Source: Planctomycetota bacterium
GTDB lineage: Bacteria; Planctomycetota; UBA1135
DNA length: 9,862 bases
Assembly (NCBI GenBank): GCA_002400895.1
Contig: NVRO01000006.1
Location: 1 to 9,862 of the forward strand
Direction: 5' to 3'
Positions 2,181 through 9,862 of the stretch are shown piece by piece. The notes below the pieces were generated by a model that worked only from the letters and a program-made list of their open reading frames with translations, ran no database searches and was not told the DNA's origin. Every line of letters starts with the position of its first letter. The first letter of the stretch is position 1. Position numbers and translations under genes: made by a program.

Positions 2181-4358
2181 CTACTTCAGGGTAAGGATGT
2201 CGCCATTGCTAACGGCTGACTGCGGTATTTTCAGAACACTCTTGGCGCCCTGGCGGACGATAGCGGCCTTACTGGCAACTGCATCCCCCATCAAACCCTC
2301 GGTGGCATAGGGTACGCGCAGTTCAACCCAGCCATCCTCACCGGCAACAGCTTCAGCCTGGTATAAAAAAGCGTAGCTGCTGCTTTTCAAGTCGATGCGC
2401 ATCTCGATACCAACAATCGTTTGTGGTGGTGCGGCCACCCTCAACAGTGCGCCTTCAACGCGCTGCCAAATCATCCCCACCGGAGCAACTTCACCAGCGG
2501 CAGCCAAACGCGAATCGGGTTGTGGATCCTTGAATGGGCTGACAAAAACAAGGCGCAATCGGGAAGGCGCAGGGGGTCCCCCGGAATGGGTGAGTGCGGC
2601 GGCCAAAGAATTGCGCCATTGAGCAGTCGAGGTCCCGGCCGCAGCCTTGAGTTGTGACCAGGCGGAGGGAATCGCACTGTGCACCAGCACGTAATCGCAG
2701 CGGTGCCGATCAAGTATTTCTTCTCCCTCTTCCCAGGTGCTCGCAGTAAAGAATTCGGCAGGTGCACGGAATGATTCTTCCCCCACGTAGGAGCCGAAAT
2801 TGGTGGCAACACTGGCACGGCCGGCGACAAATTCCAAAGCATGACCCTGATCCCAATGGGCAAGAACACTTCCATTGCCCTCTGCATTGGCGGCCAACCA
2901 TTCGTGCAGACTACGCACCCCGTTCTGGCGCCACGACTCGACCGAGCTGCGGTCTTCATGACGATAACCAATGCGTTCAATGGTCTCGGCCACCGTGGTG
3001 GCCTGAAGCAAGGCAACTGCAAGCAGACCTAGCGGAATACGCAAACGACAAGATGGAATAAATTTAACCAGCAACGGCGCCAGCCAACAACCAACCAGGA
3101 TTGCTATCGGGATACTCGCCAGGTCGGAAAAACGGAGCTGAAACAAGGCTTGTGCCACCAACACCACCGCTGCCAGCACCCACACCAAGCTGGCGGATCG
3201 GTGTTGGGTCAAGCGACAAGCGTAAATTGCGCTCGGCAGTGCACAAATTGCAACACCAAGCCACTTAAAAACGCCCGTTAATCCATCCTTCCAGGCTGGC
3301 TGTGATTCGGCTATATCGGCCATGAATACATTGGCACGCGCGGCCCACTCAAATCCTTCGCTGACACCACTGAATGGTGGTAACTGCAACTGCCACAGGC
3401 CGATGGAAGTCGCAGCCAGACCGATCGCGCCAAAACGAGCAATGCGATTCGAGTCGCGAAAAAAATATAAGCTGGCAAAGTAGCCGACCGCCACCGCCAA
3501 CATTATTGGATGAAACCAGGAAAGGTTGACTACAACCCATGGCTGCAACTGTTGCCACGGGCTACTCATGACTGCGGGCATCAATGCAACAATTGCCGCC
3601 AAGTTGAAACTGGCAGCGAACATCGGCAAACCCGGGCGTTCCTTTATTCCCTTCATTGCCAGGCCCAGAAATACCAACTCAACAACTCCGACCTGCACCA
3701 GGGAAGCCGTCCAACTGCCCACCAATATTCCGGCGACTATACCGCCGGCAATGCCGAAGAGTTCGGCGCCAGCCTCGCGACGATGAACTCCACGCTTGAA
3801 GCCAAGTGCGACCATACCGAACATCGCTACCGTCAAAAAGGCGACAAAGGAATGGTGGTCGGCAATGCCGGGTGCGGAGTAATGGATTGACCCGCCAGCC
3901 AGGGCATGGAGCGATCCGGCAAGCAGTCCGGCCCGCCATCCACCCAGCGCAAATGCCGCTGCCGCGACCAGAACTGAAGTCAAGACTCCAAACCACAGCG
4001 GCAGGACTGCGCTTGCCCTTTCAACAAAAAGCTTCCGCTCGGCGGGTTGGTCGGCCAACGGCGCAAGCGGCTTCAATAACAGGTGCAAAATGGTGTCGTA
4101 ATAAGGTGGCCATGGAATCGCCGCCCCATGGGGGGCATTCATCGCCGAATCAAATTCGGCCACCGGTAAGCCGGTGCGCAAAGATTCCTCAACTCTGCGG
4201 GCATGGTACAGGCCATCCGGTTCGGCCGAGAACCAGCCAAGCTGTTGCGCGCTACTACCGGGAACCCGCTCGATCCGCATCTGGTTGGCTTCCCTGACAC
4301 CCCATGACAACAGCGCCACCACCGCAAAGATGGCGAGGAGGAATGGGGGACGCTGCAT
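2181..4358 (-). CDS. STT3/AglB/PglB-family oligosaccharyltransferase
   Basis: A 725-residue membrane protein, close to the length of Campylobacter PglB. About a dozen hydrophobic segments occupy roughly residues 5-456, followed by a soluble domain (about 476-725) expected on the outer face of the inner membrane. The family transfers a lipid-linked glycan to Asn of N-X-S/T. All landmark motifs can be placed in order: the first acidic metal-binding motif in SAEPDGLYHARR (44-55, D48); the second in GIADHHSF (164-171, DHH at 167-169, as in archaeal AglB); the external-loop SVSE/TIXE-like motif as IAESQP (349-354, E351), followed by PAW; a conserved-looking Arg in QLRFSD (407-412); and the WWDYG sequon-binding motif as HWDQG (501-505). 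The last deviates from consensus, with His for the first Trp and Gln for Tyr. It starts 21 bp after the DUF5916 gene stops, so the two are probably co-transcribed. A stop codon lies 9-11 bases upstream in frame, which fixes the ATG at 4358. The alternative is a related GT-C glycosyltransferase (for example a GT39/ArnT type), but the DHH, IAES and WD-G motifs together favour STT3. No lipid-linked oligosaccharide genes are in the window. Confidence 0.85.
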   Translation of the reverse strand: MQRPPFLLAIFAVVALLSWGVREANQMRIERVPGSSAQQLGWFSAEPDGLYHARRVEESLRTGLPVAEFDSAMNAPHGAAIPWPPYYDTILHLLLKPLAPLADQPAERKLFVERASAVLPLWFGVLTSVLVAAAAFALGGWRAGLLAGSLHALAGGSIHYSAPGIADHHSFVAFLTVAMFGMVALGFKRGVHRREAGAELFGIAGGIVAGILVGSWTASLVQVGVVELVFLGLAMKGIKERPGLPMFAASFNLAAIVALMPAVMSSPWQQLQPWVVVNLSWFHPIMLAVAVGYFASLYFFRDSNRIARFGAIGLAATSIGLWQLQLPPFSGVSEGFEWAARANVFMADIAESQPAWKDGLTGVFKWLGVAICALPSAIYACRLTQHRSASLVWVLAAVVLVAQALFQLRFSDLASIPIAILVGCWLAPLLVKFIPSCRLRIPLGLLAVALLQATTVAETIERIGYRHEDRSSVESWRQNGVRSLHEWLAANAEGNGSVLAHWDQGHALEFVAGRASVATNFGSYVGEESFRAPAEFFTASTWEEGEEILDRHRCDYVLVHSAIPSAWSQLKAAAGTSTAQWRNSLAAALTHSGGPPAPSRLRLVFVSPFKDPQPDSRLAAAGEVAPVGMIWQRVEGALLRVAAPPQTIVGIEMRIDLKSSSYAFLYQAEAVAGEDGWVELRVPYATEGLMGDAVASKAAIVRQGAKSVLKIPQSAVSNGDILTLK

Positions 4359-6640: not shown

Positions 6641-6672
6641 CAAAAAACAGCCGCCTCCAAAAAGGAGGCGGC
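6641..6672 (-). terminator. Rho-independent terminator of the FG-GAP repeat gene
   Basis: A perfect 9-bp GC-rich stem pairs GCCGCCTCC (6650-6658) with GGAGGCGGC (6664-6672) around a 5-base loop. Read on the minus strand it is followed by TGTTTTTTG, giving the U-run needed for intrinsic termination. It begins 39 bases after the stop codon of the minus-strand gene ending at 6712. The plus-strand side has no T-run, so it acts in one direction only. Confidence 0.92.
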
Positions 6673-6711
6673 CAAATGAGTGTGGATTCCCGGAGGAATC
6701 CCGATTATTGC

Positions 6712-8898
6712 CTAGTTGATGTCATATACCATCATGCGGGAAAGTTTGAAGTTTTGCCCAACCTTGCCAACTGCCTGGCTCCAGACCCGCAGGCCGGCAC
6801 CCTTAGCGGGGACATTTACTTCCAAACTGGCATTTCCATTGAGGTCGGCAATCGCGGAACCGAGCAACAAATAGGGCGAAGCCAACATCATGGTAAAGCC
6901 ATGCCCGGGGTCAAGCTGGCCGGTGCCATGAATGGACGCCACAAAGTAGACGGTGGCTCCATCGGACATGCCGCCGGCGTGCCAGGTATTGAACTGGCCG
7001 GCGAAAATCCCACCAATACCGGTGCCATCGTCAACCGTAAGGGTAGCACTGGTACCGGCAGACATTGCCATGATGTAGCCATTGTCAGCCATTCCACCGG
7101 AGTCGCTGTAAGGAGCAGAGACGATTAGGTCAGAGTGTCCGTCGCCATCGAGGTCGGGAACCTCCTTGGCAACCCAGCCGAAACGCGAGTCGTTGGAATC
7201 GCCATCAAGACGCCACAGCTCGCTGCCATCGGAACCGGAAAATGCGCGCACCGATCCGTTGTTAACAAAACCATTGGAATCGGCAAGGTTGCTATGTGAA
7301 ACGATATCGCGAACACCATCACCATCCAGGTCGCTCATGTCGGAAAGGTTGGCGCCAAGACGAATATCGCTGCTTTCACCATCGTGAGACCAGAGGGTCG
7401 CACCGTTAACACCATTAATGGCAATGATGGAACCGTTGTTGACAAAACCGGCGCTGTCATCGAATTCGCTGCCGGAGACGTAGTCGTCGACACCGTCACC
7501 ATCGAGGTCACCCGGGCGAGACAGGTATTGGCCAAGGTGCGCGGTGTCGCCAAGACCGTCTATTCGCCACAATGTGCTGCCGTTTTGACCGCTGAAAGCC
7601 TGCAAAAATCCATTGCCGTTCAGCCCTGAGGTGCTGGCCTCGGGGGCGGCGGCAACCACATCGCGGTAGCCATCTCCATTGAGGTCGTCGGTTAACCAGA
7701 AGTTTTCACCCAGACGACCGTAGTTGTCGGTTCCGTCCTTCTGCCAGATTGGCCAACCATGGGCGCCATCAAGGACCCACAATGAACCGTTGACGGTCTT
7801 GCCACCGGTCGAGCGGTCGGGCATACCAACGACAATATCGTTGACGTTATCGCCATTAAGGTCCCAACCAGCATTGTATTCGGAACCAAGTCGCTCCCCG
7901 TGGTAGTAGCCGGCGGCTGCCCAAATAGTGGACCCATCTACACCTGAAAGCATCTGCACCGTGCCGTTCCAGTACCAGGAGCCCTCGAAGGCCTCAGGGT
8001 TAACCACCAGAATGTCGGCAACGCCATCACCGTTGGCGTCGGGAACTGACTCCATACTCTGACCGATCATGGAGTTGTCGGAGGCTCCATCGACGCGCCA
8101 CAGCACAGCGCCGTTGGCGGAGGACATTGCTTGAACAAATCCATTCTGCCAATTGCCATTGGTGCTTGCTTCCGGGTTAGAAGAAAGGATGTCGGGGTTA
8201 CCATCGCCGTCGAGGTCGTCGACCATGGCAATCACCGCGCCGAGTCCTTCGTGGTCGGAGGTTCCGGCTATGTGCCACCACTGTTGGCCCAGCTTACCGT
8301 TGACCAGTTCAACGTAACCATTTGCCTGGCCGCCCCAATCGTTGGCACCTTTAGACCCAATTGCGATGTCGGGAACACCGTCTCCATTGATGTCTGGCAT
8401 GACTACAGCAGCACTACCCAGCAATTCGTTGTCAGACCAACCAAGACGGTTCCAAATCAGCGATCCGTTTGCTCCGGAAACTGCCTCGACTGAGCCATTT
8501 GCGGTATGGCCGTTATAGTTGCCTTCTGGTTGACGATGGAAGTAGTCATGGACTCCGTCACCATCAAGGTCGTCAGTAAGAATAAGGGCTTGCCCATATA
8601 GCTCCCCGTCGATAGTTCCGTCGCGACGCCAGAGCAGAGCACCGTCAACCCCGGAAAAAACCTGCACGCTTCCATTCTTGTAAAGCATGCCGGTTGAGGC
8701 ATTGGAGTTCTTGGAAACAACATCCACGACTCCATCGCCATTGAGGTCAACGAAATCACGCAACACACCCCATCCGAGCGCGGCGGAACTGTCAGCTCCG
8801 TCAACACGCCACATACTGGAGGCAGGATTCTGCTGGGCCACCAAAGGGACTGCTAGCAGAACCGCAAACAAGGTTATTGAGAAAAGAAATTTGAACAT
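6712..8898 (-). CDS. Secreted FG-GAP/VCBS-type repeat beta-propeller protein with ten identical-length units
   Basis: A 728-residue protein starting at the ATG at 8898. Residues 1-22 form a signal peptide (MFKFLFSITLF, then an Ala/Val-rich core ending VAQQ). Residues 30-614 are ten FG-GAP-like units. Each has a Ca-binding DxDGD-type loop (D51, D110, D169, D228, D287, D346, D405, D464, D523, D582), an NG turn at unit position 25-26, a SGxDGxxLW segment ending in Trp at unit position 40, and an LG/FG pair at 51-52. Such proteins fold as calcium-binding beta-propellers like the integrin alpha head and act outside the cytoplasm in adhesion or binding. The Trp-ended half of each unit also resembles PQQ-type blades. 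Residues about 615-728 form a separate beta-rich domain (PYLLLGSAIADLNGNASLEV, then VPAKGAGLRVWSQAVG) of a kind seen at the end of many planctomycete secreted proteins; it may be a sorting or adhesion module. No transmembrane anchor or LPXTG motif is present. No Shine-Dalgarno sequence is evident before the ATG. It is transcribed alone, with its own terminator. The ligand is unknown. Confidence 0.93.
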   Translation of the reverse strand: MFKFLFSITLFAVLLAVPLVAQQNPASSMWRVDGADSSAALGWGVLRDFVDLNGDGVVDVVSKNSNASTGMLYKNGSVQVFSGVDGALLWRRDGTIDGELYGQALILTDDLDGDGVHDYFHRQPEGNYNGHTANGSVEAVSGANGSLIWNRLGWSDNELLGSAAVVMPDINGDGVPDIAIGSKGANDWGGQANGYVELVNGKLGQQWWHIAGTSDHEGLGAVIAMVDDLDGDGNPDILSSNPEASTNGNWQNGFVQAMSSANGAVLWRVDGASDNSMIGQSMESVPDANGDGVADILVVNPEAFEGSWYWNGTVQMLSGVDGSTIWAAAGYYHGERLGSEYNAGWDLNGDNVNDIVVGMPDRSTGGKTVNGSLWVLDGAHGWPIWQKDGTDNYGRLGENFWLTDDLNGDGYRDVVAAAPEASTSGLNGNGFLQAFSGQNGSTLWRIDGLGDTAHLGQYLSRPGDLDGDGVDDYVSGSEFDDSAGFVNNGSIIAINGVNGATLWSHDGESSDIRLGANLSDMSDLDGDGVRDIVSHSNLADSNGFVNNGSVRAFSGSDGSELWRLDGDSNDSRFGWVAKEVPDLDGDGHSDLIVSAPYSDSGGMADNGYIMAMSAGTSATLTVDDGTGIGGIFAGQFNTWHAGGMSDGATVYFVASIHGTGQLDPGHGFTMMLASPYLLLGSAIADLNGNASLEVNVPAKGAGLRVWSQAVGKVGQNFKLSRMMVYDIN
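7057..8811 (-). repeat. Ten-unit coding tandem repeat, 177-bp (59-codon) period
   Basis: Nine complete units run from 8748 down to 7156, each exactly 177 bp long when measured from the first Asp of one calcium loop to the next. A half unit comes before them (from Trp30 at 8811) and a half unit after (ending near 7057). The units have diverged in sequence, with the loop, NG, W and LG positions kept, but no insertion or deletion separates any neighbouring pair. On the plus strand the loops appear as repeated CCATCGAGGTC-like words. Confidence 0.93.
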
Positions 8899-9123
8899 GG
8901 ATTAAGGGCAAATCAGGGCTTGCAGTAAGGAAAAATGGAGCAAAGCCAACTCAACGAAGTCTCATTAAGGAGGGGTTGTCAAACTCAAGCATACTTCATT
9001 CTTCCAAACCAATAATAACCCGACAGCAAGAGCCCCGCTAAATATCTATAAAATACTGCACATTAATGGCTTACCGACAGATACGGCCTGGAGCCCCCGA
9101 AGCGTATAGTATTGGCCATTAGC
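8899..9123. promoter_or_regulatory. Divergent intergenic region, AT-rich core
   Basis: This 225-bp gap separates the FG-GAP gene from the plus-strand membrane gene, so promoters in both directions are expected. An AT-rich patch at 9040-9067 includes TATAAAAT (9047-9054). A TATAGT (9105-9110) lies 13 bases before the ATG at 9124, without a matching -35 box. On the minus strand a perfect TTGACA lies at 8983-8978, 80 bases before the FG-GAP start, again without a good -10 partner. No RNA gene or small ORF worth calling was seen. Confidence 0.3.
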
Positions 9124-9862
9124 ATGTTTCCCCTAATAAGCTCACTGCTACTGGCTGCTGCCACCTCGATTTACGCTTTTGGTTGCATTGATGCAATTGC
9201 CCAGTTAGTGGGAGGCAGCACGCTCCACTATCTCACCATTGGCGGATTATTCATGCTGGCAATGGGTCGCGGGGCTCTACGCGCCAACCGTGCACCAATC
9301 AGTTGGGATCTGGGTCTTTTCATGTTGGCTCTGGGGATTGTTCCCCCACTGCTCGCCCCATGGGTCGCTCCCGTTCTGGGTGAGAATACTATTGGCTTCA
9401 GTTGGGCAGGTGGATTGGCACTGGCATGGCTATTGCTGCGGGTTCCGGCAATGGCGCTCGGTTCCCACCTGACGGCCAGAATCGACGCCGCCGCACCCGC
9501 CGCCTGGAATGCCGTCGGAATAGGAGCTACGCTGGGCATATTCCTGGTCACGAGTGCCGGGCTTGGAAGCCTTGGCTTTGTCGTTGCCACCATCTTTCTG
9601 GTGGCATGCTGTGGCATTTCCTTCCCGGCCCCCAGCCGTATGCGATTGACTGCTCCCCACGCCAAGCCCAGGGAGCTTGTCCCCCTCGCCATGTTCAGCC
9701 TTGCGCTTACGGTTGGATTACTTTGGTTACTCCCGCTGCTTGAATTATTTGACGGCTCCAGCACAACCCAAGATTCTCGGCGCCTGCTAACTCTCGCCAC
9801 CATCATGCTGGCAGGATCGTGGGCGGTTGGCAGTTCGATTTCAATGAGTAGATGGGCGGGTC
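9124..9862 (+). CDS. Polytopic membrane protein of unknown function, 3' end truncated by the window edge
   Basis: The visible part is 246 codons from the ATG at 9124, open to the right edge. It is almost wholly hydrophobic, with about eight predicted membrane segments near residues 3-28, 35-53, 62-86, 91-114, 124-148, 150-167, 183-206 and 219-241. They are joined by short loops with Arg, Asp and Pro, for example RGALRANRAPISWD (50-63) and SHLTARIDAA. The pattern of paired helices with basic loops fits an integral inner-membrane protein, possibly a transporter-like protein or the membrane half of a larger enzyme such as a membrane-fused aminopropyltransferase. No diagnostic motif was recognised, so no function is assigned. 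The start lacks a Shine-Dalgarno sequence; a TTG in frame at 9112 is an alternative. The long reading frame on the opposite strand (9228-9806) is judged a shadow. Confidence 0.75.
   Translation, partial: MFPLISSLLLAAATSIYAFGCIDAIAQLVGGSTLHYLTIGGLFMLAMGRGALRANRAPISWDLGLFMLALGIVPPLLAPWVAPVLGENTIGFSWAGGLALAWLLLRVPAMALGSHLTARIDAAAPAAWNAVGIGATLGIFLVTSAGLGSLGFVVATIFLVACCGISFPAPSRMRLTAPHAKPRELVPLAMFSLALTVGLLWLLPLLELFDGSSTTQDSRRLLTLATIMLAGSWAVGSSISMSRWAG

Follow-up and report, generated by a model that had tools for sequence, protein, structure and literature searches.

A stretch of 9,862 nucleotides from Planctomycetota bacterium (contig NVRO01000006.1; this whole stretch is called the window below) carries on its minus strand a gene for a 728-residue protein built of ten FG-GAP units. 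We read the product as a secreted beta-propeller of the FG-GAP (integrin) type, each blade having a calcium-type loop, and consider it probable that its ten units close into a single ring of ten blades. As far as sequence comparison can tell, the units keep an exact period, the protein belongs to a clade of ten-unit orthologues, and the gene is held by purifying selection without recent homogenisation of its units. Blades of four strands, with an N-terminal Trp strand closing blade 10, are predicted by a structural model. The relevant parts of the gene are as follows.

6712..8898, minus strand: gene of the ten-unit FG-GAP protein, ATG to stop (open reading frame and Pfam)
8836..8898, minus strand: signal-peptide-like N-terminus, residues ~1-21 (hydrophobic, judged by eye)
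8800..8820, minus strand: Trp strand at the N-terminus (residues 27-33), proposed as the velcro strand that closes the ring by completing blade 10 (DSSP of the full model)
7048..8817, minus strand: ten FG-GAP units of 59 residues (177 bp), residues 28-617
8713..8748, minus strand: first calcium-type loop, residues 51-62
8571, 8394, 8217, 8040, 7863, 7686, 7509, 7332 and 7155, minus strand: starts of loops 2-10, in downward steps of 177 bp

Three Pfam families matched the protein, all of FG-GAP kind: FG-GAP PF01839 (E 1.1e-29; profile score 102.2 bits against a curated cut-off of 22.1), FG-GAP_3 PF13517 and the FAM234A/B propeller PF23727. All ten loops read D-x-[ND]-G-D and are of the DxDxDG type, and every blade would be expected to bind calcium. 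The first Asp of the loops falls at residues 51, 110, 169, 228, 287, 346, 405, 464, 523 and 582; all nine spacings equal 59, confirming the original prediction of ten exactly spaced loops. That prediction had also claimed that there were no indels, over a span (7156-8748) that equals exactly nine 177-bp periods; the ten units together take up 7048-8817. From loop to loop this is correct, but unit 1 has one extra residue between Trp and Asp (21 residues versus 20 in units 2-10, as also in P0001-P0006), located just outside the measured loop-to-loop span.

Number of units in the clade and its relatives

The clade of orthologues was defined by similarity (top matches of the first search, minus P0022, a 14-unit protein of 966 amino acids, aa); because the full-length members are, in addition, all 716-752 residues long, their agreement on ten partly reflects how the set was chosen. 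All ten loop columns were covered in 23 of the 24 orthologue rows. The automatic unit count gave 11 for P0004 and P0011 (one extra end match each) and 8 for P0007; P0004, P0007 and P0024 are partial proteins. In the profile search the lowest listed member of the clade, a fragment, scored 739 bits, whereas the 14-unit proteins after it scored 657 and then 539; P0025 was not among the matches listed.

A search of 151 genomes (the class of G001), with seven candidates scored per genome, produced 14 strong loci in 13 genomes at 709-968 bits, the next match being at 329; this gap is partly built in, because L054-L059 largely repeat proteins of the search model. Ten units were present in the 12 strong loci examined, the other two having been seen only as open frames. 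A contig profile scan with the window protein alone found no relative; with a closer alignment it gave 45 loci, among which L001 alone matched over nearly full length (40% identity). We also saw two adjacent family genes in genome G014 (L074), at 7442-9709 and 9609-11756 (minus strand), scoring 821 and 710 bits.

Among the 96 non-clade matches, 55 proteins had 14 units; the rest had 13 (14 proteins), 12 (6), 11 (7), 10 (1), 8 (3) and 7 (10), where counts between 8 and 13 may contain partial proteins and missed units. The sole relative counted at ten, P0037, has an end that looks damaged by eye. By these counts most relatives fit seven or twice seven units and the window clade fits ten. No offset was distinct when the positions of the ten units were set against the 14 units of relatives (54 proteins).

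A separate observation concerns P0106 (810 aa), which has twelve FG-GAP units, six of 11 spacings equal to 57 and an outer-strand Trp in 92% of its units; its blade number, too, may lie outside the multiples of seven, perhaps in a ring of its own kind.

Exactness of the period and divergence between units

The unit length had been thought unusually strict, and in comparison with the wider family it is: in the 96 non-orthologous FG-GAP relatives only 233 of 1072 spacings (21.7%) equal 59 (those of 45-75 residues were counted, others dropped), and nine of nine independent draws from this fraction would agree by chance with a probability of ~1e-6. Within its own orthologues, however, the exact copy is unremarkable, because 59 is the value of 203 of the 222 clade spacings (a total that includes the nine of the window protein; truncated P0007 lacks three cells). 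Equal-spacing runs of 6-8 occur in relatives as well, at 57, 58, 59 or 61 residues, such as those of 8 (58 aa, P0038) and 7 (59 aa, P0028) outside the clade. P0065 (1240 aa) consists of two sets of seven units, with 11 of 12 within-set spacings exactly 61 and a step of 193 between the sets, indicating that near-exact periods also exist in relatives built on seven.

All nine spacings are exactly 59 in 11 of the 24 orthologue rows. The 12 genome loci gave 59 in 97 of 108 spacings; six of them (L054-L059) largely repeat proteins of the first orthologue set, and L060-L065, which do not, alone gave 50 of 54. Since orthologues and genome loci mostly have 59, the period is a trait of the clade, not of the window copy. 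The 19 deviating clade spacings are 57 (1), 60 (2), 61 (6), 62 (1), 63 (3) and 64 (6), so that across orthologues the number of units was kept and their length for the most part. As orthologues with spacings of 57, 58 and 60-64 still have ten units, the idea that a ring forces the exact length is weakened; the clade, judged from its sequences, holds count and motif, not exact length. Of the proposal that a closed symmetric ring constrains the geometry, the ring itself is backed by prediction and comparison (see below); an exact length is probably not forced by it.

One could suppose that 59 is simply the ancestral unit length, with indels in compact repeats being rare and mostly removed and geometry not demanding it. 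We give this explanation an even chance. It agrees with the ten units kept in orthologues at spacings of 57-64 and with the equal runs in relatives; it is also compatible with a ten-bladed ring and is largely accepted within our reading. Still, common descent may not be the whole reason why 59 makes up 203/222 of the clade spacings but 21.7% of those in the wider family. A length of 59 residues appears to be the ancestral state of the clade, preserved for the most part.

Recombination at the 177-bp period, homogenising the units again and again, had been offered as another cause, and solely the exact period itself speaks for it. Unit-to-unit identity in the window protein is 24-54% (mean 35%) for protein and 33-54% (mean 45%) for DNA, with a longest in-register identity of 11 bp, although the values for unit 1 are too low, the first part of this unit having been cut with a register shift of one residue; the units are well diverged and no fresh duplication, as had been noted from the start. 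At the DNA level, Tandem Repeats Finder detected no array. Of 899 cases in which two units agree in a residue, 358 also agree in its codon (39.8% versus 36.8% expected from codon usage), and fourfold sites were identical in 177 of 548 (32.3% versus 31.5%). Synonymous divergence among the aligned 177-bp units is near saturation, with no clusters of near-identical units, and in the 12 genome orthologues the closest unit pair within a gene has 50-63% DNA identity.

Units found their best match at their own position in 10 of 10 cases against each of P0003, P0005 and P0006 (the three closest orthologues tested), in 3-7 of 10 against the 12 more distant orthologues listed, and in 2757 of 5642 over all ordered pairs. 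With synonymous sites near saturation, no unit pair near-identical and matching that is position-specific, recent recombination between units is excluded on these sequence grounds. Homogenisation is refuted for recent times, and we regard it as extremely improbable as the cause of the period; an ancient amplification may remain. The ratio of nonsynonymous to synonymous divergence (dN/dS) was finite in four orthologue pairs, at 0.03-0.09 (three of them form one trio and two have dS > 2), the firm values being 0.042 and 0.086; by these values the gene is under purifying selection. In pairs with the window protein, synonymous sites are saturated (proportion of synonymous differences, pS, 0.70-0.81).

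Predicted structure and probable closure of the ring

The AlphaFold2 model (25-row alignment) has four strands per unit, a mean predicted local distance difference test score (pLDDT) of 91.5 and a predicted template modelling score (pTM) of 0.85; the first strand of unit 1 is one or two residues only. Segment 27-33 is a strand in the full model and shares its Trp motif with the last strand of each of units 1-9; its W30 is conserved in at least 90% of the alignment column, and none of the six proteins shown has a Trp in the segment beyond unit 10. Given that one-strand permutation is the usual velcro closure of propellers, according to a passage of PMC6805158, the N-terminal Trp strand should complete blade 10 in the predicted fold and so close the ring.

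A structure search of the Protein Data Bank (PDB) with the full model gave integrin heads as best matches, with a root-mean-square deviation (rmsd) of 6.1-8.4 Å over 312-377 residues and a Foldseek template modelling (TM) score of ~0.3 (50 matches listed). Units 4-10 folded alone (pLDDT 93.4, pTM 0.87) gave an rmsd of 7.6-9.8 Å and TM of 0.43-0.48 to integrin rings among the matches listed. A seven-bladed ring inside a model would be expected to superpose closely on integrins; the window protein has ten units and superposes poorly on seven-bladed rings. In a toy model, superposing seven blades gave 8.1 Å for a ten-ring, 6.0 Å for a nine-ring and 9.8 Å for an eleven-ring; the fragment figures suit a curvature near ten, with a flat and a slightly rising ring left unseparated.

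Two smaller propellers in tandem (e.g. 5+5 or 7+3) would also have ten units. The 14-unit relatives are most simply two seven-bladed rings, and P0027, P0065, P0108, P0112 and P0116 have a step of 102-275 residues exactly after unit 7; most of the 55 14-unit relatives lack such a break, so that an unbroken period alone does not show one ring. Yet, as regards a ring of seven, neither the full model nor units 4-10 superposes closely on integrins, and the pTM of the full model corresponds to one confident overall arrangement. A tandem arrangement is unlikely in our estimate.

We consider it more improbable still that the repeats stay open as a superhelical array. In the fragment of units 4-10 the first Trp segment was not a strand and an open arc was predicted, the predictor in this one test leaving seven of these units unclosed; the superposition figures, too, agree equally well with a flat ring and with a ten-fold helix of small rise. 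On the other hand, the N-terminal Trp segment is a strand in the full model and would need a partner, and wherever the units could be counted, in 23 orthologue rows and 12 loci, there were ten. What favours closure is the N-terminal strand of the full model, which is predicted as paired.

Clade units carry a sequence signature, seen when 203 of them were compared with 233 equally long units from relatives. Trp stands at Asp+39 in 99% of clade units versus 10% of relatives' units, and Asn at Asp+24 in 88%, versus a mix led by Ala (42%). The small-residue inner strand (S/A-V-A-G) of relatives has been lost: mean side-chain volume from Asp-6 to Asp-4 is 140.7 in the clade (131.0-145.4, 25 proteins) and 114.0 in relatives (105.1-133.9, 96 proteins). 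A wider ring would leave more space around its axis and so could accommodate bulkier inner strands. We infer that the protein arose by amplification of a unit of ~59 residues and that the count of ten was fixed by blade-to-blade packing, through the outer-strand Trp and the bulkier inner strand; the unit length would be inherited and only loosely constrained.

Several observations weigh against this reading of a ten-bladed ring and its origin. Closure is based on secondary structure and superposition figures, all predicted, and the fragment was folded with the same orthologue rows as the full model. In the toy model a ten-fold helix rising 1-3 Å per blade gave 8.3-9.5 Å, the figures leaving a flat ring unproven. 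Inner-strand volume ranges of clade and relatives overlap slightly, and the outer Trp is present in >60% of units in three of 96 relatives as well (P0106, P0108 and P0089; median 14%). Loop-core identity between units is 0.33 within clade proteins versus 0.43 between different relatives, which lends no support to an amplification inside the clade. PDB sequence matches are integrins only (56 listed; 52 in another search), and gene order resembles that of the window in only two of ten regions compared (G036 and G004).

Putative role and comparison with known propellers

Other features of the gene and its surroundings are listed here.

6715..7047, minus strand: C-terminal region, residues 618-728, beta-rich (AlphaFold2 model)
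6648..6674, minus strand: intrinsic terminator-like hairpin directly 3′ of the gene (11-pair stem and T tail)
2181-4358, minus strand: bacterial STT3/AglB-like oligosaccharyltransferase homologue (PF02516, PF18079, PF22627)

From its signal-like N-terminus (pLDDT < 50 for residues 1-23 of the model) the protein is probably secreted. The C-terminal region has pLDDT values, in blocks of ten, of 86-95 from residue 631 onward and 74 for 621-630; neither Pfam nor NCBIfam gave a match to it with E ≤ 1. In genome G001, 11 of 18 matches were restricted to this region (E 2.5e-11 to 5.3e-4), and the seven-unit protein P0118 has a similar C-terminal end, judged by eye; possibly the region is a sorting or anchoring domain shared by secreted planctomycete proteins. 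The terminator scan gave three sites versus 2.8 expected, the one at 6648..6674 having the longest stem.

The STT3/AglB-like homologue did not reach the score that NCBIfam requires of the archaeosortase-associated type. G036 and G004 (L069, L070) share the order DUF1800, STT3/AglB-like, DUF5916 and ten-unit gene with the window, and the divergent membrane-protein gene is present too, behind two further genes. No gene partner was constant over the ten regions compared; as only these two share several window genes, a partner gene does not explain the function. No obvious catalytic set was found by eye among the conserved columns. With probable secretion, calcium-type loops, and neither a catalytic set nor a constant partner, the protein most likely serves outside the cell or on its surface as an adhesin or a rigid scaffold for binding; putative ligands could be held on one of its faces or in a wide channel at its centre.

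In its FG-GAP motif, DxDxDG-type loop, predicted four-stranded blade and best sequence and structure matches the protein resembles the propeller of integrin alpha subunits (PF01839; alpha-V, alpha-5); the Pfam scan of the protein gave no match to integrin legs. Integrin propellers are closed by an N-terminal strand, and such closure is predicted here too. Integrins have seven blades and three or four calcium sites, as stated in a passage of PMC3192720, whereas the window protein has ten units with a loop in each. Bacterial integrin-type propellers are described in parts of the same paper (Chouhan et al. 2011, PMC3192720) as having seven repeats or two sets of seven, a calcium motif in each repeat and loop lengths more regular than in human integrins. 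The window protein shares the motif in every repeat and the regular lengths, and in the light of that description regularity of repeat length is not new; 7/14-unit relatives, unlike the window clade, often have small residues in the inner strand and mostly lack the outer Trp.

Sortilin (Vps10) has ten blades in one ring, as is predicted here, and a passage of PMC3797127 calls it the only known ten-bladed propeller as of 2013. It differs in belonging to the Asp-box group, known for irregular propellers (PMC2716378). The Asp-box family was not among the three matched Pfam families, no scan having been aimed at the SxDxGxTW motif; sortilin was also not among the 50 matches listed per structure search, all integrins, which is not evidence of a difference. 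Highly repetitive VCBS/FG-GAP propellers, with which the window protein shares a supercluster of amplified blades, are characterized in passages of Pereira and Lupas (2022, PMC9218822) as recent amplifications with near-identical blades (identity > 60% is mentioned) and varying blade number; by contrast, the window blades are well diverged (mean 35%, maximum 54%), with a count of ten in the orthologues counted.

Passages of PMC6805158 give propeller structures known with four to twelve blades, and one engineered five-bladed fragment that did not pair into a ten-ring, which its authors related to packing tension. In open-access PMC literature we found no report joining FG-GAP with ten blades and none of a 10-bladed propeller with AlphaFold. 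It may with equal probability be true or not that this is the first natural ten-bladed integrin/FG-GAP ring, of a clade that left the 7/14 pattern through a changed blade interface (outer Trp almost invariant, inner strand bulkier and without its small-residue motif), with the ring number readable in sequence. A natural ten-unit family beside 7/14 relatives would allow a paired comparison of what determines ring size, and would also offer a regular scaffold with a wide channel.
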